Shown one piece after another: positions 18,712 to 29,788 of a stretch of 64,000 bases of DNA. Below the pieces are notes generated by a model. That model was not told the DNA's origin. It saw nothing but the letters and a program-made list of their open reading frames with translations, and searched no databases. Source of the stretch: Clostridia bacterium (GTDB lineage: Bacteria > Bacillota > Clostridia > Oscillospirales > Acutalibacteraceae); assembly GCA_017517135.1 (NCBI GenBank), contig JAFXAK010000028.1, positions 1 to 64,000 on the forward strand. Direction: 5' to 3'. The translations under genes were made by a program, and so were the position numbers. Numbering within the stretch: the stretch's first letter is position 1; every line of letters begins with the position of its first letter.

Positions 18712-19062
18712 GCATATTCAAAAATTATTTTGCATTTCTGTATTTTTGAACAGAATAACACAAAACAAGCATTTAATTTTAGCACAATTGCACACAAATA
18801 CCCATTAATAATTATAATAATATATTTTATTATCCCTCATCAATACTCTTTCAGCACTCTGATTATACAATTTCGGATGATTTTTTATGCATATTTTCAC
18901 TGTATAATTGCATAAAAATTAATTTTTCGCTGAGACAATGTCACAAGAAAACAAAAATGTTCAAATTTTCTTCATTTTTTGTTAAAATATATATGGATTT
19001 TAGTTAAAAACTGTGCTAAAATACTCGATTATAAGTTATTTTGCGAAAAGAGGCGACCTTTT
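18712..19062. other. AT-rich divergent intergenic region before the NuoE-like gene
   Basis: About 350 bases without a gene, very AT-rich. Apart from the arginine promoter on its left edge, I see a weak plus-strand promoter for the flavoprotein operon: TTCAAA (18960-18965), 17-bp spacer, TAAAAT (18983-18988), leaving a leader of about 70 bases. No riboswitch or conserved RNA was recognised. Confidence 0.4.
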
Positions 19063-19551
19063 ATGTGTGAAAACTGCAGCAAAAGTGATCTGACATTGCT
19101 CAATGATGTTCTTAAAGAATTTGCATCGGTCAGAGGCTCACTTATCACAATTTTGCAGAAAGCACAGGAAATTTACGGTTATTTACCTGTTGATGTAATT
19201 TATTATTTAGCTGAAAAAACGGGCAACACCCCCGCAAAGGTTATGGGCGTTGCAACCTTTTACACTCAGTTCCGTTTAACCCCCGTAGGCAAAAATCTTA
19301 TTATGCTCTGCAAGGGTACGGCCTGCCATGTAAACGGTGCGGATGCTGTTGAAAAGGCTATATGCGACTATCTTGAAATCAAAGACGGCGAAACAAGTGC
19401 AGACGGTCTTTTCTCGCTCAAAACCGTTGCGTGCCTGGGCTGCTGCTCACTCTCTCCCGTTATGATGATAAACGAGGATACCTACGGCAGTCTGACTCCT
19501 CAGAAAGCAGTTGAAATATTAACGGAAATAAAGGCAAGGGAGGAAGCATAA
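19063..19551 (+). CDS. NuoE-like 2Fe-2S subunit of a flavoprotein complex
   Basis: A 162-residue thioredoxin-fold [2Fe-2S] protein of the NuoE/HydC/HndA family. The four ligands are Cys83 and Cys88 (CKGTAC) and Cys124 and Cys128 (CLGCC). The ATG at 19063 follows AGAGGCGA; a longer frame back to 18979 has no good ribosome binding site and adds an unrelated hydrophobic leader. It hands electrons to or from the FMN subunit encoded next, with which it overlaps by one base (TAATG). Confidence 0.9.
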   Translation: MCENCSKSDLTLLNDVLKEFASVRGSLITILQKAQEIYGYLPVDVIYYLAEKTGNTPAKVMGVATFYTQFRLTPVGKNLIMLCKGTACHVNGADAVEKAICDYLEIKDGETSADGLFSLKTVACLGCCSLSPVMMINEDTYGSLTPQKAVEILTEIKAREEA

Positions 19552-21296
19552 TGAGAATAGTTATCGGTGAAGGCTCCTGCGGTATTGCGGCAGGCGCTCT
19601 TAAAGTACATTCGGCAATAGATGCTTTCGCAAATTCGGATATACAAATCGGTATCACGGGCTGTATCGGTATGTGCTTCCTTGAACCTATAGTTGATATA
19701 TACGAAGAAAATGAGCTTAAAGCAAGGCTTGTTAAGGTTAAAGAAAGCGATGCCCAAAATATCGTAAATGCCGTAAAAGAAAACAATCTTTCTTTGGTAG
19801 ACTACCTCAAAATTTCGGACGAAGACAATTCCTTCTTAACACAGCAGACAAGAATTGCGCTGAGAAACTGCGGTATAGCAGATCCCGAAAATATTGAATC
19901 ATATAAAGAAAAAGGCGGCTATGAAGCTCTTAAAAAGGTGCTCACCTCAATGACACCCGAGGAGGTTATAGAGGAAATAAAGACCTCGGGGCTTGCAGGC
20001 AGAGGCGGTGCGGGCTTCCCTACCTGGTTTAAGTGGAATGCGGCAAGACAAAGCGATGGCGACGAAAAATATCTTATCTGCAATGCAGACGAGGGCGATC
20101 CCGGTGCATTTATGGACAGAGCGGTTATAGAAAGCGATCCGCACAATCTTATTGAGGGTATGCTCATTGCGGCATATGCTATCGGTGCAAAATATGCCTA
20201 TGTATATGTAAGAGCGGAATATCCTCTTGCAATAGTAAGACTCGGCAAGGCAATAGAGGATGCAACAAAAGAAAATCTTTTAGGCGAAAATATACTCGGC
20301 ACATCTTTCAGCTGTACACTCAGAATCAAGGCGGGAGCAGGTGCATTTGTCTGCGGTGAGGAAACCGCACTTATTGAATCGTTGGAGGGCAAAAGAGGTA
20401 TGCCGAGGCTCAAGCCTCCCTTCCCCGCACAGAAGGGCTATGAAAACAAGCCCTCGAACATAAACAATGTTGAGACCTTTGCGAATGTACCGTGGATAAT
20501 TCTCAATTCGGGCAAAGCCTTTGCTTCAATGGGTACTGAGACCAGCAAGGGCACAAAGGTATTTGCACTCACGGGTAAAATCAGACGCGGCGGTCTTGTT
20601 GAAATTCCTATGGGACTTACTCTCAGAGATGTTATTTTCAACATAGGCGGCGGAATCAGAAACAATAAAAAGTTCAAGGCAGTTCAGTTGGGCGGCCCCT
20701 CCGGCGGATGTATTCCCGAAGCACTCCTTGATACGGTTATCGACTATAAGGCATTGTCTGCAACGGGTGCTATAATGGGCTCGGGCGGTATGGTTGTTAT
20801 GGACGAGGACACCTGTATGGTAAATATGGCTCGCTTCTTCCTTGACTTTACTACCAAGGAATCCTGCGGTAAATGTGTGCATTGCAGAATAGGCACAAAG
20901 AGACTGTTTGAAATTCTCACCCGTATAACGGACGGCAAGGGTAAAGAGGGCGACATTGAGCTTTTAGAGGAGCTTTGCGACTCGGTTAAAAGCGGTGCTC
21001 TGTGCGGTCTCGGACAGACTGCTCCAAACCCCGTGCTTACAACAATAAAATATTTCAGAAACGAATATGAAGCACATATCAATGAGGGCAGATGTCCCGC
21101 GGGCGAATGTGCGGCTTTAAGAAAATATGTAATAGACGAAACAAAGTGCAGGGGATGTACACTCTGTGCTAAAAAGTGTCCCGTAAACGCTATAAGCGGC
21201 TCAGTAAAACAGGCACACAAGATAGATACAAACAAATGTATAAAATGCGGTCTGTGTAAATCAAACTGCAAGTTCGATGCAATAGAAGTAAAATAA
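19551..21296 (+). CDS. NuoF-like NADH-binding FMN/Fe-S subunit
   Basis: A 581-residue subunit related to NuoF, HydB and HndC. An N-terminal thioredoxin-like extension (about 1-115) is followed by the NADH/FMN core with GRGGAGFPT and NADEGDPGAFMDRA, then the N3 [4Fe-4S] ligands SCGKCVHCRIG plus a later Cys in LCGLGQ, then a C-terminal 2x[4Fe-4S] ferredoxin domain with CRGCTLCAKKCP and CIKCGLCKSNC. The extensions are typical of soluble bifurcating complexes, not of respiratory complex I. It takes NADH to or from a chain of iron-sulfur clusters. Confidence 0.92.
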   Translation: MRIVIGEGSCGIAAGALKVHSAIDAFANSDIQIGITGCIGMCFLEPIVDIYEENELKARLVKVKESDAQNIVNAVKENNLSLVDYLKISDEDNSFLTQQTRIALRNCGIADPENIESYKEKGGYEALKKVLTSMTPEEVIEEIKTSGLAGRGGAGFPTWFKWNAARQSDGDEKYLICNADEGDPGAFMDRAVIESDPHNLIEGMLIAAYAIGAKYAYVYVRAEYPLAIVRLGKAIEDATKENLLGENILGTSFSCTLRIKAGAGAFVCGEETALIESLEGKRGMPRLKPPFPAQKGYENKPSNINNVETFANVPWIILNSGKAFASMGTETSKGTKVFALTGKIRRGGLVEIPMGLTLRDVIFNIGGGIRNNKKFKAVQLGGPSGGCIPEALLDTVIDYKALSATGAIMGSGGMVVMDEDTCMVNMARFFLDFTTKESCGKCVHCRIGTKRLFEILTRITDGKGKEGDIELLEELCDSVKSGALCGLGQTAPNPVLTTIKYFRNEYEAHINEGRCPAGECAALRKYVIDETKCRGCTLCAKKCPVNAISGSVKQAHKIDTNKCIKCGLCKSNCKFDAIEVK

Positions 21297-21310
21297 GGAG
21301 GCGGTAAAAA

Positions 21311-23347
21311 ATGAACGAAAAAATCAATATAACAATAAACGGAAAAGCAATTACCGCCGACAAGGGCGAAACAATACTCAATATTGCGAGCGCAAACGGT
21401 ATTGAAATTCCCAATCTCTGCTATCTCAAGCACTTATCCCCCTACGGTGCGTGCGGAATGTGTGTTGTTGAAGCAAAGGGCAGTCCTAAGCTTCTTCGTG
21501 CCTGCTCTGCTGTGGCTGCAGACGGCATGGAAATTGAAACGAATTCCGAAAGAGCTGTTAAAACAAGAAAAGCGGCTCTCGAGCTTCTTATGTCTGACCA
21601 CGACGGTGACTGTAAGGGACCTTGCACACTTAACTGTCCTGCCCACACAGACTGTCAGGGATATCTTGCAAAAATTGCCGAAAACGATATGGAGGGTGCC
21701 GTAAAAATCATAAAAGAAAAAGTACCTCTCCCTGCGGCAATAGGCAGAGTTTGTCCTCATCCGTGTGAAACAGCATGCAGAAGAACACATGTCGAAGAAG
21801 CTCTTTCTATAGCAGCTCTCAAGGCTTTTGCTGCTGATGAGGTAAGAAAATCGGGCAAATCCGTTTTACCCGAAATCAAAAAAAACAGCGGTAAAAGTGT
21901 TGGCATCATCGGCGGCGGTCCTGCAGGACTTAGTGCCGCATATTATCTTGCAGAAAACGGACACAAGGTAACTGTCTACGATAAAATGCCGAAGATGGGC
22001 GGTATGCTTCGTTACGGTATTCCCGAATACAGACTTCCCAAGGCAATACTTGATTGCGAAATCGAGGAAATAAAATCCCTCGGTGTTGACTTCAGAAACA
22101 ATGTGATGATAGGAAAAGACATCACACTCGAAGAAATCAGAAACAGCCACGATGCAGTTTTAATCGCAAACGGTGCGTGGAAAAGCACCGCCATCCGCTG
22201 TAAGGGTGAAGACTTAGAGGGTGTTTTCGGCGGTATAGATTTCCTCAGAGAGGTAGCGTTGGGCAACAAGCCCGAAATCGGTGAAAAAACCGCCATAGTC
22301 GGCGGCGGTAATACCGCAATGGATGCCTGCAGAACTGCAAAAAGACTCGGTGCAAATGAGGTCAGCGTTATATACAGAAGAACAAGAAACGAAATGCCTG
22401 CCGAGGATATAGAAATCGAGGAAGCAACGGAAGAGGGCGTAATTTTCCGCTTCCTTACAAATCCCGATGAAATTATCGGTGAAAACGGCAAGGTAAAGGC
22501 TGTAAGACTTCAGGTTATGGAATTGGGCGAGCCCGACGAAAAAGGCAGAAGAAGCCCCGTACCCGTTGACGGTGAATTTATAACCCTTGAGCTTGATTCA
22601 ATAATCATTGCCGCAGGTCAGCGTAACGACAGCTTCGGCTTTGAGGAAATGCCCGTAACCAAAAAAGGAACGATTATTGCAGACGAAAAATCCTTTGCAA
22701 CCTCTCTTGACGGTGTTTTTGCCGCAGGTGACTGTGTAAATAACGGTGCATCAATCGCTATTGAAGCAATAGCAAAGGCAAACAATGCCGCAAAAGCAAT
22801 AAATGCATATCTTAACGGTGTTGAGGTTTCCTTCAGAGAGCCTGTCCTGTCCGAAAGAGAAGTAACAAAAGAAATGTTCGAGGGCAAGGAAAAGCAAAGC
22901 AGAGTAAAAATGCCCACCCGTCCGGCAGACGAGAGAAGCAAGGACTTCGGAGAGGTAAATTTAGGATTAACAAGAGAAGAAGCTATAAACGAAGCAAAGC
23001 GTTGTCTCAGCTGCGGATGCCACGATTACGGCAACTGCAAGCTTATAAAATATGCCGACGATTACTGTGTTGACTGCAAAAAATACGCAGGAGAAAATCA
23101 TCCCGCATTTACAGAAACAAAGCTTCAGGTAATCGAAAGAAATCAGAATAAATGTATTCTCTGCTCACTTTGTGTCAGAGAGTGTGAAGACACCGCAAAG
23201 AAAGGCATCTTAGGACTTGTAGGCAGAGGCTTTGATACCGTAATCAAGCCCGAATTCAGAGATTCCGAGGTTATAAAAGACTGTGTAAGCTGCCGTAAAT
23301 GTGTTGATGCCTGCCCCACGGGAAGTCTGAGATTTATTCAGAAATAA
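21311..23347 (+). CDS. Chimeric 2Fe-2S / GltD-like FAD oxidoreductase / NuoG-type ferredoxin subunit
   Basis: A 678-residue three-part protein. Residues 1-95 are a plant-type [2Fe-2S] domain (CYLKHLSPYGACGMC, then a further Cys) as in NuoG/HydA. Residues 100-530 are a GltD/NfnB-like flavoprotein: Cys-rich entry (CKGPCTLNC, CPHPCETACRR), FAD loop GGGPAGLSAAYYLAENG, NAD(P) loop GGGNTAMDACRTAKRLG and the closing FAAGDCVN. The last 130 residues are a NuoG-type double [4Fe-4S] domain (NKCILCSLCVREC, CVSCRKCVDACPTG). No H-cluster domain is present. It fits a subunit of a bifurcating NADH/NADPH/ferredoxin transhydrogenase. GGAGG is 14 bases after the previous stop. Confidence 0.88.
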   Translation: MNEKINITINGKAITADKGETILNIASANGIEIPNLCYLKHLSPYGACGMCVVEAKGSPKLLRACSAVAADGMEIETNSERAVKTRKAALELLMSDHDGDCKGPCTLNCPAHTDCQGYLAKIAENDMEGAVKIIKEKVPLPAAIGRVCPHPCETACRRTHVEEALSIAALKAFAADEVRKSGKSVLPEIKKNSGKSVGIIGGGPAGLSAAYYLAENGHKVTVYDKMPKMGGMLRYGIPEYRLPKAILDCEIEEIKSLGVDFRNNVMIGKDITLEEIRNSHDAVLIANGAWKSTAIRCKGEDLEGVFGGIDFLREVALGNKPEIGEKTAIVGGGNTAMDACRTAKRLGANEVSVIYRRTRNEMPAEDIEIEEATEEGVIFRFLTNPDEIIGENGKVKAVRLQVMELGEPDEKGRRSPVPVDGEFITLELDSIIIAAGQRNDSFGFEEMPVTKKGTIIADEKSFATSLDGVFAAGDCVNNGASIAIEAIAKANNAAKAINAYLNGVEVSFREPVLSEREVTKEMFEGKEKQSRVKMPTRPADERSKDFGEVNLGLTREEAINEAKRCLSCGCHDYGNCKLIKYADDYCVDCKKYAGENHPAFTETKLQVIERNQNKCILCSLCVRECEDTAKKGILGLVGRGFDTVIKPEFRDSEVIKDCVSCRKCVDACPTGSLRFIQK

Positions 23348-23687
23348 TACAGATAAAGCAAAACGGTGCCTATAGAACACTAATTCTGAAAAAATTATTG
23401 TTTCACGGCATCTGTCTGTCAGAAACGGAAAACAGTATAATGCATCACATTGACAAAAACGCTTAATTTGCGGTATAATAATGCTTAACTGATGCAAGAA
23501 GAAGACTGCTGAATGAGTTTATTGCAATGCTATAAAACTTTTCCGGCAGAAAGTTTTTTACACAGCAGAATTTTGCGGTGAATATGGGATAGACTACGAA
23601 ATTACAGAAAAAGAGTGGTTGATAATTTGATTTTAAGCAACAGCAAACTGATCAGAAGCCATATTTATCCACGGAGAGAAAAACAGT
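23348..23687 (+). promoter_or_regulatory. Promoter and long leader of the Trk potassium operon
   Basis: A 340-base stretch without a gene. It holds a strong promoter, -35 TTGACA (23450-23455), 18-bp spacer, -10 TATAAT (23474-23479), and then about 200 bases of untranslated leader. Around 23532-23560 the leader can form a small hairpin AAAACTTT/AAAGTTTT followed by T, a possible attenuator. I looked for the ydaO-type c-di-AMP riboswitch, common before potassium transporters, and did not recognise its consensus. Confidence 0.45.
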
Positions 23688-25843: not shown

Positions 25844-28800
25844 TTAATAGTGAACCGCACCGCATTCACATACGGGATTCATTTTGAACAGCTTCCAGAA
25901 GAAACGAACTATTTTCCAGATAAAGCCCATAAAGCCTGATTTGTGGCACATATGGTCGCAATCAGCAGAAGAATCTGACGGAACACCAGGTTCATTGGTA
26001 ATTGAACTGCTTTCATCAACAAGAATATATACACTGAAAGAATTAGCAAGAAAGCATATATATCCGTCTTCAATAGTTACAGGCAGTACTCTTTCGCGTT
26101 TTCCTGTTTCTGAATTGATATGATATACAGCAATTGTTGATGTATTGTAACTTGCAGGCAAGGGAATTCTTACAAGGACAGGTGCATCGGGTTGAACTTC
26201 TGTATCACCAATATATGTTTTTATATTCCATGACATAATATTGGTATATTGCTGAGTAAGATACTGCGAACCGTTATATACTTCTTCAATCTTGATAACC
26301 ACATCTTCATCATATGCATCTGAGGTATATTCAACAGACACACCGGACTGCTCGTCTTCTGTCTTTTTACCCTCTAATCTGGGAATAATTCTTGTTTCGG
26401 TATGATCACAACGGGTACACTTACTCTTTTCCTGTCCTTCTTCAAGAAGTGTTGCCGCCTTAAGCACTTCCCATGCACACATATCGTGACCGAGCTTTTC
26501 AATCACTTCGCCGTTTACAAGCCTTTCATTGCAATCACTACAGAATGTGTCGCCTGTGTAACCGTCTTCTGTGCAGGAAACAGTCTTCACATTGTCAACA
26601 TATGTTTCTCCCTGATGGTTTTCAGGATTTACCTCACCGGTTTCTGTATTGGTATGAGAAGCATCATTCTTACAGGTGTAAAGCTTTTCTTCCTTTACTA
26701 TACATGTAGCTTCTGTGATAACAACACCGTCGTCCCAATCGTGTCCGAGCTTATCAAGAATTTCAAAATCAAGCTCTTCATAACAACGACTACAGGTCGT
26801 TATTGTGTAGCCTGTTACTTCACAGGTCGCAGATTGGGTATATGATACAGGATCATGACCGAATGCATCCTCGACGGAATCTGTATAAGAATACCCACAA
26901 TCCTTACAGGTGTATGTGGTGTAACCGTCTTCTGTACAGGTAGGCTCAGTTACAACACTGTCAAAATTATGCTCGTGTGCTTCATCACCTATCAATTCAA
27001 ATTCACGCTCATACTTTTCAGCATAAGCCTGTGCGGTTGAATCAGCATAACCGATTATTTTTGTACCGGAATAAATAGTATAGCTGCTGTCATAAATTTC
27101 ACATTCGGGGTTGAGAATAGTTATGCTTTCAAGGTTTGAACAATACGTGAATGCATTCGGACCGATACTTGTAATCGAATTTGGAATGATTATACTTTCA
27201 AGGTTGGTACAATAACGGAATGTCATGTTCCTAATAATTGTTAGAGAATCCGGAATTGTTATACTTATAAGGCTGCTACAATCAGTAAACGCAGCATACC
27301 CGATACTTATTACGGAATCTGGCATTGTTATGCTTTCAAGGTTAGCACAATACTCAAACGCATAATCATCAATAGTTATTACGGAATCGGGAACGAAATA
27401 TTCTGTTCTTGCATTTCCGGCAGGATATCGTATCAATATGGTTTTATTCTTGTCAAATAATACACCATAAGCATCCGAACTATAATAAGCATTATTAACA
27501 TCCACCATTATACTTTCAAGGCTGAGACAACCACGGAACGCTTCATCACCTACACCAGTTACTGTGCCCCCGATACTTGTTACAGACTTGCCTATTGATA
27601 TTTTTTTAAGATTTTTGCAAAAATCGAACGCAGAATCACCTATGGTTGTTATAGAATCCGGAATTGTTATGCTTTCAAGACTGGAGCAAACATAGAACGC
27701 ATAATCTCCGATGCTTGTGACTGAGTCGGGGATTGTTATGTTCGTAAGGCTGTAGCAATAAGAGAATGCACCAACTCCGATGCTTGTGACTGAGTCGGGG
27801 ATTGTTATACTCGTAAGACTGTCGCAATCAGAGAACGCATAATCTCCGATGCTTGTGACATCATTTTTAATAATTACTGTGATGATATAATCACGGTAAG
27901 CATACCAAGGTGTATTATTATAATCATAATCATACATATCACCTTCGCCACTTATCACAAGAGTATCACTGTAAACAGTCCATGTAAGATTTTCACCGCA
28001 TGTACCGCTTGCAATTATTGAAGATTCACCACAGTTATCACAAATACCGTCAAAATCTGCATCCGAATGAGTACAAATGTATTCAAGCGTTACATCAAAT
28101 GAACCGCTTTCATATGAGTATAATCTTGCACCCCAGTAATAAGTTTTTCCTGCTTCAAGCTCATAAGTAATAGAAAAATTGAGGTCCTCTCCAGCATCAT
28201 CATTGGATGCCAGCTGATTCTTATCAGCATCAAACAAATAGCCATATGTATTACTATCTGCTGATGAATAAAAGGTATATTTACCGCTTCTTTCGGGAAT
28301 AAATCTGAGATATGTTATCTCATTTGCAACTATATCAATAAGTTTTGTTTCACCAACAAGAATATCTGATACATTGTTGCCGCAGACTTCACAGGTATTA
28401 TCATTATTTTCGTCTGTGTGCCCTGTGGCATCAACATAAGTATCTTTATAAGAATAACCGCAATCTGTGCAGGTGTAAGTTGTGTAACCGTCTTCTGTGC
28501 AAGTAGGTTCAGTTACAACACTGTCAAAATTATGCTCGTGTGCTTCATCATCTATCAATTCAAATTCACGGTCATATTTTTCGGCATATTCCTGAGCCGT
28601 TGAGTCTAAATAACCAACTATTGTTGCACCAGAGTAAATAGTTTCACCTTTATCAGCAATTTCACATTCGGGATTAAGAATAGTTATAGTTTCAAGACTG
28701 TCACAATAACGGAACGCATCATATCCGATGCTTGTGACTGAGTCTGGAATTGTTATGTTCGTAAGACTATCGCAATTAGAGAACGCACCATATCCGATGC

Positions 28801-29788
28801 TTGTGACTGAGTCTCCGATTGTTATGCTCGTAAGGCTGTAGCAATCAGAGAACGCATAATCTCCGATGCTTGTGACTGAGTCTCCGATTGTTATGCTCGT
28901 AAGGCTGTAGCAATCAGAGAACGCATAATCTCCGATGCTTGTGACTGAGTCAGCGATTGTTATGCTCGTAAGGCTGTAGCAATCAGAGAACGCACCAACT
29001 CCGATGCTTGTGACTGAGTCTGGGATTGTTATACTCGTAAGACTGTCGCAAATATAGAACGCACAATCTCTGATGTTTGTGACTGAGTCGGGGATTGAAT
29101 ATGATGTTGTTTCGTTATCACATGGATATCGTATCAATTCTGTTTTATTTTTATTAAACAGAACACCATAAGAATCTGAAGAGTACTGAGTATTATTTTC
29201 ATCTACTGTTATGCTCGTAAGGCTGTAGCAATCAGAGAACGCATAATCTCCGATGCTTGTGACTGAGTCAGCGATTGTTATGCTCGTAAGACTGTAGCAA
29301 TAAGCGAACGCATAATCTCCGATGCTTGTGACTGAGTCGGGGATTGTTATACTCGTAAGACTGTCGCAAATATAGAACGCATAATCTCCGATGCTTGTGA
29401 CTGAGTCTGGAATTGTTATGTTCGTAAGACTATCGCAATTAGAGAATGCACTTTCTCCGATGCTTGTGACATCATTTTTAATAATTACTGTGATGATATA
29501 ATCACGGTAAGCATACCAAGGTGTATTATCATAATCATCATCCATCTCCCCCTCACCGCTTATAACAAGAGTACCGTTCTCATACAGCACCCAAGTAAGA
29601 TTTTCTCCGCAGGTGCCTGAGGTTGTTACGGTTTCATCTGTAATTTCCGTTTCCTGAGCTTTAGCAAAAAGACCAAGCGAAATTTCAGGTAAGTTTTCTG
29701 CGGCAAAACCTGCAAGCTCAGCAAGCGGAACACTACACAAAAGCATAATACTTGCTAAAACTACTGCCAAATTTTTTTTGAACTTCAT
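25844..29788 (-). CDS. BspA-like secreted leucine-rich-repeat protein
   Basis: A 1314-residue exported protein. Residues 1-29 are a signal peptide. Two large modules follow (from about 57 and about 592), each with an entry segment ([10 protein letters not shown], then [20 protein letters not shown]), a run of about ten LRR_5 repeats of 23 residues (consensus [19 protein letters not shown]), a GY-DSTAQ-YAEKY closing segment, and Cys-rich repeats of the form [16 protein letters not shown] Ser/Asn-poor region of unknown fold covers about 385-590. The last 38 residues hold CHK-GF-GFIWKI, a basic aromatic helix and CECGAVHY, without LPxTG. BspA-like proteins bind host matrix or other cells; that role is inferred. 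The RBS is GGGAG. Confidence 0.9.
28680..29480. repeat. 69-bp tandem repeats coding for leucine-rich repeats
   Basis: Units of 69 bp (23 codons) repeat head to tail within the BspA-like gene. Copies beginning at 28811, 28880 and 28949 are almost identical base for base, and further copies lie to either side up to about 29480, plus a second block at about 27690-27860. Identity at silent positions suggests recent duplication or gene conversion, and copy number may vary between strains. Confidence 0.85.

Follow-up and report, generated by a model that had tools for sequence, protein, structure and literature searches.

The electron-bifurcating transhydrogenase Stn of Sporomusa ovata is built from the subunits StnA, StnB and StnC. 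In the published account, NADPH reduces the flavin adenine dinucleotide (FAD) of StnC, Fe–S clusters relay the electrons to the flavin mononucleotide (FMN) of StnB, and a moving StnA takes part in bifurcation by StnAB (Kumar 2023). The bifurcating site is this FMN module, whereas the NfnB-like FAD only relays electrons, and an inactive FdhF-like domain of StnC (residues 683–1172, about 490 amino acids) helps to mediate the tetramer; what the branch clusters and this domain contribute was left open, and their removal destroyed the complex (Kumar 2023). The related Nfn-Bfu of Thermococcus sibiricus carries out NADPH-dependent, NAD+-coupled ferredoxin reduction (Schut 2022), StnC proteins range from 891 to 1241 amino acids in Table 1 of Kremp 2020, and partial C-terminal domains are described in two Thermococcus homologues (Kumar 2023). 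A StnC devoid of the FdhF-like domain was not met in the accessible portions of the literature (including Kumar 2023, Kremp 2020, Schut 2022 and Blautia luti 2026), whose supplementary trees may hold a short form. Here, we describe the stnABC operon of a gut-type anaerobe, a Clostridia bacterium of the family Acutalibacteraceae, located at 19063–23347 on the plus strand of the window, i.e., the whole stretch of DNA analysed (64,000 nucleotides, positions 1 to 64,000 of contig JAFXAK010000028.1), which quite probably encodes an electron-bifurcating transhydrogenase of the Stn (Nfn-Bfu) type in a compact form. What is new is this compactness. The coordinates and frames of the three overlapping or closely spaced genes, as given in a preliminary description made from the sequence, proved right on checking the open reading frames of the window. 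The genes and the domains of StnC are as follows:

19063..19551, plus strand: StnA, NuoE/HydC-like [2Fe-2S] subunit, 162 amino acids (Pfam, PDB matches, cysteines)
19551..21296, plus strand: StnB, NuoF/HydB-like FMN subunit with an N-terminal thioredoxin-like part and two C-terminal [4Fe-4S] sites, 581 amino acids (Pfam, PDB matches)
21311..23347, plus strand: compact StnC, Fer2 – GltD/NfnB-like – NuoG dicluster, 678 amino acids, without FdhF-like domain (Pfam, PDB matches)
21317..21547, plus strand: StnC residues 3–79, [2Fe-2S] domain with C37, C48, C51 and C65 (Fer2_4, E 6e-21)
21611..21853, plus strand: StnC residues 101–181, Cys-rich GltD N-terminal region with C148, C152, C156 and the lysine ligand K171 (Fer4_20, E 9e-21)
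21896..22777, plus strand: StnC residues 196–489, FAD/NADP(H) module of two Rossmann folds, with R241 (Pyr_redox_2, E 2e-37)
23129..23329, plus strand: StnC residues 607–673, NuoG-type [4Fe-4S] dicluster, followed by the protein end (Fer4_Nqo3, Fer4_21)

The frames of stnA and stnB share one base and stnC begins 14 bases after stnB. The subunits were compared with those of relatives through the 120 StnC sequences retained in the tree described below, which comprise 46 compact, 19 mini, 12 mid and 43 long ones, the length classes (up to 35, 140 and 340 amino acids beyond the core, and longer) having been set by us before the tree was made. StnA is a thioredoxin-like [2Fe-2S] protein (2Fe-2S_thioredx, E 1e-49) whose top PDB matches by sequence are 9bov_C (E 2e-59) and 8oh5_A (StnA, 5e-56), entries 8oh5 and 8oh9 being taken as S. 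ovata StnABC by length and context. Its C83, C88 and C124 are invariant in 90 StnA sequences and C128 is present in all except one of the mid class, while C83, C88, C124, C127 and C128 are all invariant in 39 compact ones. StnB, matched best by 8oh5_B (StnB, E 2e-255), shows Complex1_51K, NADH_4Fe-4S and two C-terminal Fer4 stretches, together with SLBB_2 under the Pfam cut-off (E 5e-5, 23.8 of 27 bits). The cysteines of its SCGKCxxC site, of the linker and of both ferredoxin motifs are invariant in the 46 compact sequences, as are E181 and D183, the equivalents of E184 and D186 of S. ovata; all residue equivalences for StnB and StnC were counted from printed alignments. Two extra cysteines of StnB, C255 and C476, are common in compact, mini and mid sequences and rare in long ones (3 and 4 of 38, respectively).

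The best solved-structure matches of StnC are 9bov_A (E 4e-230) and 8oh5_C (StnC, 8e-222), both covering only residues 4–673 or thereabouts. Of the 25 NCBIfam matches listed for StnC, none attains the model's cut-off, the best being PRK12814 (670.8 of 916 bits), and the two dicluster models remain just under theirs (Fer4_Nqo3, E 1e-5, 25.8 of 27 bits; Fer4_21, E 2e-5, 25.4 of 35). The [2Fe-2S] ligands C37, C48, C51 and C65 are kept in 46 of 46 compact sequences, and R241, which aligns with R239 of S. ovata, in 120 of 120 StnC sequences. K171 aligns with K170 of S. ovata and is a lysine in 115 of the 120 (45 of the 46 compact ones), whereas C115, equivalent to C114, is a cysteine in 79 of 120; K170 is reported to be strictly conserved and required for activity and C114 to be neither strictly conserved nor required (Kumar 2023). 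The eight dicluster cysteines, a pair of clusters at 615–668, are kept in 45 of 46 compact sequences. Across the compact class, L246 (C625A, C658R, C661A and K171H) is the single sequence to depart from any of the 24 cluster-ligand positions listed for StnC, among them K171. Thus, the make-up given by the preliminary description, namely a NuoE-like subunit, a NuoF-like subunit with extra ferredoxin domains and a [2Fe-2S]–GltD/NfnB–NuoG chimera, was confirmed by Pfam, and a search for StnABC homologues returned Stn-type chains for all three subunits (9bov_A/8oh5_C, 8oh5_B and 9bov_C/8oh5_A). The replacement of the H-cluster partner by an NfnB-like module also held, as no Fe_hyd_lg_C match is found in StnC.

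One feature of the window StnC went unnoticed in that description: the protein ends 6 residues past the core, at 678 amino acids versus 1172 in S. ovata. The FdhF-like C-terminal domain with cluster C1, a trait of S. ovata StnC that lies outside the definition of Nfn-Bfu, is absent, and StnC is therefore a compact variant and not a plain copy of Stn. A full-length relative (L173) aligned with the S. ovata protein has the extra Cys motif and the domain that the window StnC lacks. A split-off FdhF-like gene beside the operon was rejected, since no remnant was found downstream of the 46 compact genes with the 74 extensions as queries at E 0.01 (3 of the 46 loci offer fewer than 600 bases to test), while in the control each of the 74 non-compact sequences was recovered with a query taken from another sequence. 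The possibility that another part of the genome encodes a molybdopterin-family protein was likewise rejected, as no PF00384 protein was detected; this model detects the domain in two full-length StnC proteins and misses the C-terminal piece of the mid-length L065. Regarding the retained dicluster, its outer cluster (C658, C661, C664) would correspond to C2, with its ligands kept, and the lost cluster to C1, because chain 9n5u_A has no cysteines at the 658–664 positions and archaeal homologues are described as lacking the C2 cysteines (Kumar 2023).

Compact StnC proteins are not confined to the window. In 53 loci fetched from 300 same-family genomes, the extensions beyond the core measure 0–20, about 65, about 100, 200–300 or about 470 amino acids. 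Across 398 genomes of the phylum, 72 nearly full StnC matches besides the window's lie in frames of at least 1000 amino acids (61), near 810 (2) or below 720 (9), and across 391 genomes of the class, 57 such matches lie in frames of at least 1000 (40), 757–976 (13) or below 720 (4), these frames being stop-to-stop and counted by eye, with genomes G636 and G496 in both sets. Eleven of 12 different short StnC genes (L160–L171) finish at a true stop, and L166 is cut by the contig end. Among the best 80 matches listed in a contig scan, which represent a sample, the holders of compact StnC are Ruminococcus and other Oscillospiraceae metagenome genomes, with a few filed under Verrucomicrobiota, Lentisphaerota, Chloroflexota, Acidobacteriota and Spirochaetota. 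Three compact proteins from metagenome genomes filed as Verrucomicrobia/Lentisphaerae (L185, L186 and L187) are 63–64% identical to that of the window, a placement due to gene transfer or misbinning.

A quick tree (LG+G4) was computed from 120 of 154 StnC sequences, after dropping 21 that were cut by contig ends, partially matched or without a recognised core end, and 13 near-copies, some of them compact; the 21 include the compact-looking L241 (650 amino acids) and L245 (702 amino acids). The window StnC falls within a purely compact clade of 33 sequences, with support of 99 in the SH-like approximate likelihood ratio test (SH-aLRT). In a careful tree of 63 sequences chosen by us from the 120, this clade receives 94 in ultrafast bootstrap (UFBoot) and 86 in SH-aLRT, short of a starred branch, and a 27-sequence part of it that includes the window is supported by 100/99. 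The remaining 13 of 46 compact sequences lie outside the clade, several as single sequences. The compact label changes 11 times in the quick tree, at least 8 of them forced by starred branches, and 3 times in the 63-sequence tree, at least 2 of them forced. A single clade of all compact StnC was rejected (approximately unbiased test, p 4e-47, on the quick LG+G4 tree with the group set by length beforehand). These trees indicate that the compact form of StnC originated, or was retained, on several occasions, label counts being unable to separate gain from loss. The C1 cysteine pattern is present in 12 of 19 mini, 11 of 12 mid and 40 of 43 long sequences. Among the 7 mini sequences without it, L061, L071, L073, L077 and L196 form one clade that has lost the pattern and kept a piece of the extra domain. 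Such intermediate and cysteine-less domains suggest a stepwise erosion, although the counts themselves are directionless.

Two further observations concern StnC relatives of other kinds. A 970-amino-acid relative (L088) has E at the lysine position, with StnA and StnB not found in the stretch available, and is possibly another kind of enzyme. Moreover, many genomes of the phylum and class hold a GltD-like match (query about 103–572, mostly 44–49% identity) within frames of about 1010–1060 amino acids with another architecture.

The genome of the window, 94% complete, contains RnfC and, on another contig, an A6-type [FeFe] hydrogenase HydA (912 bits versus a cut-off of 765; 581 amino acids) with an adjoining HydB (599 amino acids); all three Fe_hyd_lg_C matches lie on contigs other than the window's. 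Beside these hydrogenase genes (C17, L262), proteins with HATPase, PHP and, weakly, DRTGG domains are encoded, together with a second [FeFe]-hydrogenase-like protein of 434 amino acids with an FeS domain. As to a separate nfnAB, whose presence the preliminary description had left to be checked, an NfnB was rejected: over the FAD/NADP module, no NfnB/GltD-type protein besides StnC matches as strongly as an NfnB would, and TIGR01316 found none, NfnA not having been searched separately. In the 300 same-family genomes, StnC is present in 61, an NfnB-type protein in 184, both in 1 (G148) and neither in 56, a near-exclusion with a Fisher p of 3e-29 when kinship is ignored. The StnC-positive list was read by eye from matches with E of at most 1e-116, including fragments and the divergent G013, so that weaker fragments could have been overlooked. 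A compact StnC was checked in 24 genomes, and the NfnB list contains none of these. That TIGR01316 matches represent NfnAB was checked in 2 loci, where we presume the partner gene to be NfnA. In the loci of two relatives (L260 and L261), nfnAB is followed by a gene that looks to us like the redox repressor Rex, which would fit an NADH-sensing control of Nfn. Stn-only and NfnB-only genomes coexist in eight genera (g2, g22, g25, g44, g51, g64, g75 and g80), and Stn is compact in g44, g51, g64 and g80. A near-exclusion of Stn and Nfn was described for 48 acetogens (Kremp 2020), to which the present counts add another group and the compact form of the enzyme. The near-exclusion with NfnB, together with the shared genera, argues that compact Stn probably does the job of Nfn without the FdhF domain.

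From the parts present we infer the reaction, its direction and the oligomeric state. At the sequence level, the window proteins hold the parts of an electron path of the S. ovata type. The FAD in the GltD-like part of StnC would be the site where NADPH or NADP+ reacts. Single electrons would run via the clusters of StnC and the [4Fe-4S] cluster at the SCGKCxxC site of StnB to the FMN of StnB, where StnAB would couple NAD+/NADH with ferredoxin, the latter at the ferredoxin-like C-terminus of StnB. The net, reversible reaction would be NADH + reduced ferredoxin + 2 NADP+ <-> NAD+ + oxidised ferredoxin + 2 NADPH, and the enzyme most likely makes NADPH from NADH and reduced ferredoxin. Hence, the assignment to an Stn-type transhydrogenase made in the preliminary description is upheld by the Stn-type matches of all three subunits, the conserved K171 and R241, the lack of an NfnB match in the genome and the near-exclusion with NfnB, with the amendment that the enzyme is compact and that its reaction is predicted. 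As a further correction, the bifurcating site of Stn is the FMN module StnAB, with the NfnB-like FAD as a relay (Kumar 2023). In a genome with Rnf and a HydABC-type hydrogenase in which no NfnB was found, ferredoxin-linked NADPH formation probably depends mainly on this complex. With the FdhF-like domain and C1 absent, the StnC-mediated tetramer of S. ovata is probably not formed. Going further, we lean, with some reserve, towards a natural minimal transhydrogenase in which the FdhF domain and C1 were shed repeatedly and independently, so that what remains is a smaller StnABC, probably no longer a tetramer, which takes over from NfnAB in full.

Several points weigh against a compact bifurcating transhydrogenase. 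No active complex was purified when the FdhF domain of S. ovata StnC was deleted, and changes of C1 or C2 cysteines gave no tetramer (Kumar 2023), so that a compact enzyme must solve its assembly by other means. Since PF00384 misses the L065 piece, a degenerate remnant in another part of the genome could escape detection. The near-exclusion with NfnB shows the same need and not the same reaction, with 56 of the 300 genomes holding neither system and one holding both, and a related enzyme, Nso of Thermococcus litoralis, is described as a sulfur oxidoreductase (Kremp 2020).

The alternative that survives best, albeit unlikely, is a non-bifurcating NADPH–NADH (or NADPH–ferredoxin) oxidoreductase, in which transfer between StnC and StnB was kept and tight coupling was lost with the FdhF domain. 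Even in S. ovata the FAD of StnC does not bifurcate and the enzyme shows uncoupled side activities (PMC10482914), and the dependence of S. ovata Stn assembly on the FdhF domain (Kumar 2023) points the same way. However, the bifurcating module is intact in the compact sequences, with the StnA [2Fe-2S] cysteines, the ferredoxin-like end and linker cysteines of StnB and E181/D183 invariant, whereas the non-bifurcating homologues are described as lacking clusters B2–B5 (Schut 2022). Slightly less probable still is a different physiological partner, a sulfur compound or another donor, docking at the end of StnC bared by the loss of the FdhF domain. The cluster pair at 615–668 is kept in 45 of 46 compact sequences even though its outer member, if it is C2 as we infer, is described as a non-functional electron branch in S. 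ovata (Kumar 2023), and the Nso relative offers a precedent for sulfur (Kremp 2020). Nevertheless, no conserved neighbour gene accompanies the 46 compact loci, and the near-exclusion with NfnB-type proteins points to a transhydrogenase role. That the compact stnC genes are decaying or truncated, through assembly error or pseudogenization, is very improbable: many of the sequences come from draft metagenome assemblies and 13 of 46 lie outside the main clade, several singly, but the 33-sequence clade has invariant ligands, StnB is found in 45 of 45 compact loci and the proteins stop at nearly the same place with no remnant downstream. Finally, the idea that the complex serves as the electron-input module of a hydrogenase or formate dehydrogenase whose genes lie in another part of the genome can be practically dismissed, since the A6-type [FeFe] hydrogenase operon that would invite such a link to HydABC has its own HydB and HydA, the genome has no PF00384 protein and StnC already bears an FAD/NADP(H)-type module.

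The surroundings of stnABC bear on the limits of the unit. Upstream, on the opposite strand, lie the arginine genes argG, argH, argC and argD, and downstream trkH and a TrkA-like gene follow behind a promoter match, so that the unit looks like three genes only. In agreement with the preliminary description, neither a hydrogenase nor a formate dehydrogenase gene follows stnC, the next genes being trkH and the TrkA-like gene. The start of stnA is read as an ATG (162 amino acids) with GAGG at 19050, an alternative TTG lying upstream at 18979. Promoter-like sites number 20 in the region versus 11.9 in shuffles; those considered are:

18960..18988, plus strand: possible promoter TTCAAA-17-TAAAAT with an extended -10 (consensus match only, 9/12)
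23450..23479, plus strand: 12/12 sigma-70-type match, read as the start of a separate trkH–trkA unit (consensus match, operon boundary)

The order A-B-C is kept in most loci of relatives. A nearly full StnB occurs in 107 of 119 tree loci (45 of 45 compact ones) and a nearly full StnA in 89 of 119 (38 of 45), some loci ending at contig ends and L062, L082 and L169 having wider spacing or no StnA found. This three-gene arrangement is not due to chance. A shared extra subunit in the neighbourhood was rejected, any one flanking gene being common to at most 3 of the 46 compact loci, whose flanks differ in length. Elsewhere in the window, at 25844–29788 on the minus strand, a 1314-amino-acid protein with many near-identical repeats is encoded, which we take to resemble a BspA-type leucine-rich repeat surface protein.

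The FdhF domain appears to have been dispensed with in several lineages while the ligands from NADPH to FMN were kept, and a comparison with S. ovata makes its role testable. Moreover, a compact Stn would offer a smaller enzyme for study or for anaerobic NADPH supply, and, judging from the exchange of Stn and NfnB within the same genus, two different machines seem to replace each other in one redox job. In relation to NfnAB, the same net reaction is expected and StnC shares the NfnB-like FAD/NADP(H) module; however, the stn operon has no NfnA-like open reading frame and bifurcation is expected at the StnB FMN, while the glutamate ligand of NfnB is the lysine K171 in StnC (Kumar 2023 and our alignment). 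StnA and StnB correspond to HydC and HydB of the bifurcating [FeFe]-hydrogenase HydABC, unlike which the operon has no H-cluster subunit, StnC gives no Fe_hyd_lg_C match and the HydAB pair of this genome is encoded separately, on a different contig. With Type 1 Nfn-Bfu enzymes the complex shares a StnB with 51K, SLBB (SLBB_2 below cut-off), NADH 4Fe-4S and ferredoxin domains, which we take to be the Pfam counterparts of the InterPro domains of BfuB, a StnA that represents the NuoE-like BfuC in the operon, and a StnC with the BfuA-type [2Fe-2S], [4Fe-4S] and predicted NADP(H)-reactive FAD module. Entry 9n5u (NfnA, 963 amino acids), presumably the Nfn-Bfu of T. sibiricus, has in its chain A a longer C-terminus and no cysteines at the 658–664 positions, whereas the window protein keeps these cysteines and lacks the extension. 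The T. sibiricus enzyme, a Type 1 Bfu enzyme, likewise bears an Nfn-like module in BfuA, and the domain definitions for BfuB come from the same source (Schut 2022). Entries 9bov/9bp5 provide the best match of both StnC and StnA, but chain A, of 1178 amino acids and named molybdopterin oxidoreductase, has a long C-terminal domain. The closest described system is S. ovata StnABC (Kremp 2020, Kumar 2023), with the same three subunits and the same domain order of [2Fe-2S], GltD-like and NuoG-type dicluster over StnC residues 3–671. The lysine ligand of the FAD-proximal cluster (K171 for K170), R239 near the FAD (R241), C114 and StnB E184/D186 are all matched in the window proteins, whereas its StnC of 1172 amino acids continues into the inactive FdhF-like domain (683–1172) and that of the window ends at 678. 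The window complex is best described as a member of Nfn-Bfu that would work like Stn and departs from the S. ovata enzyme in one trait, the FdhF-like domain.

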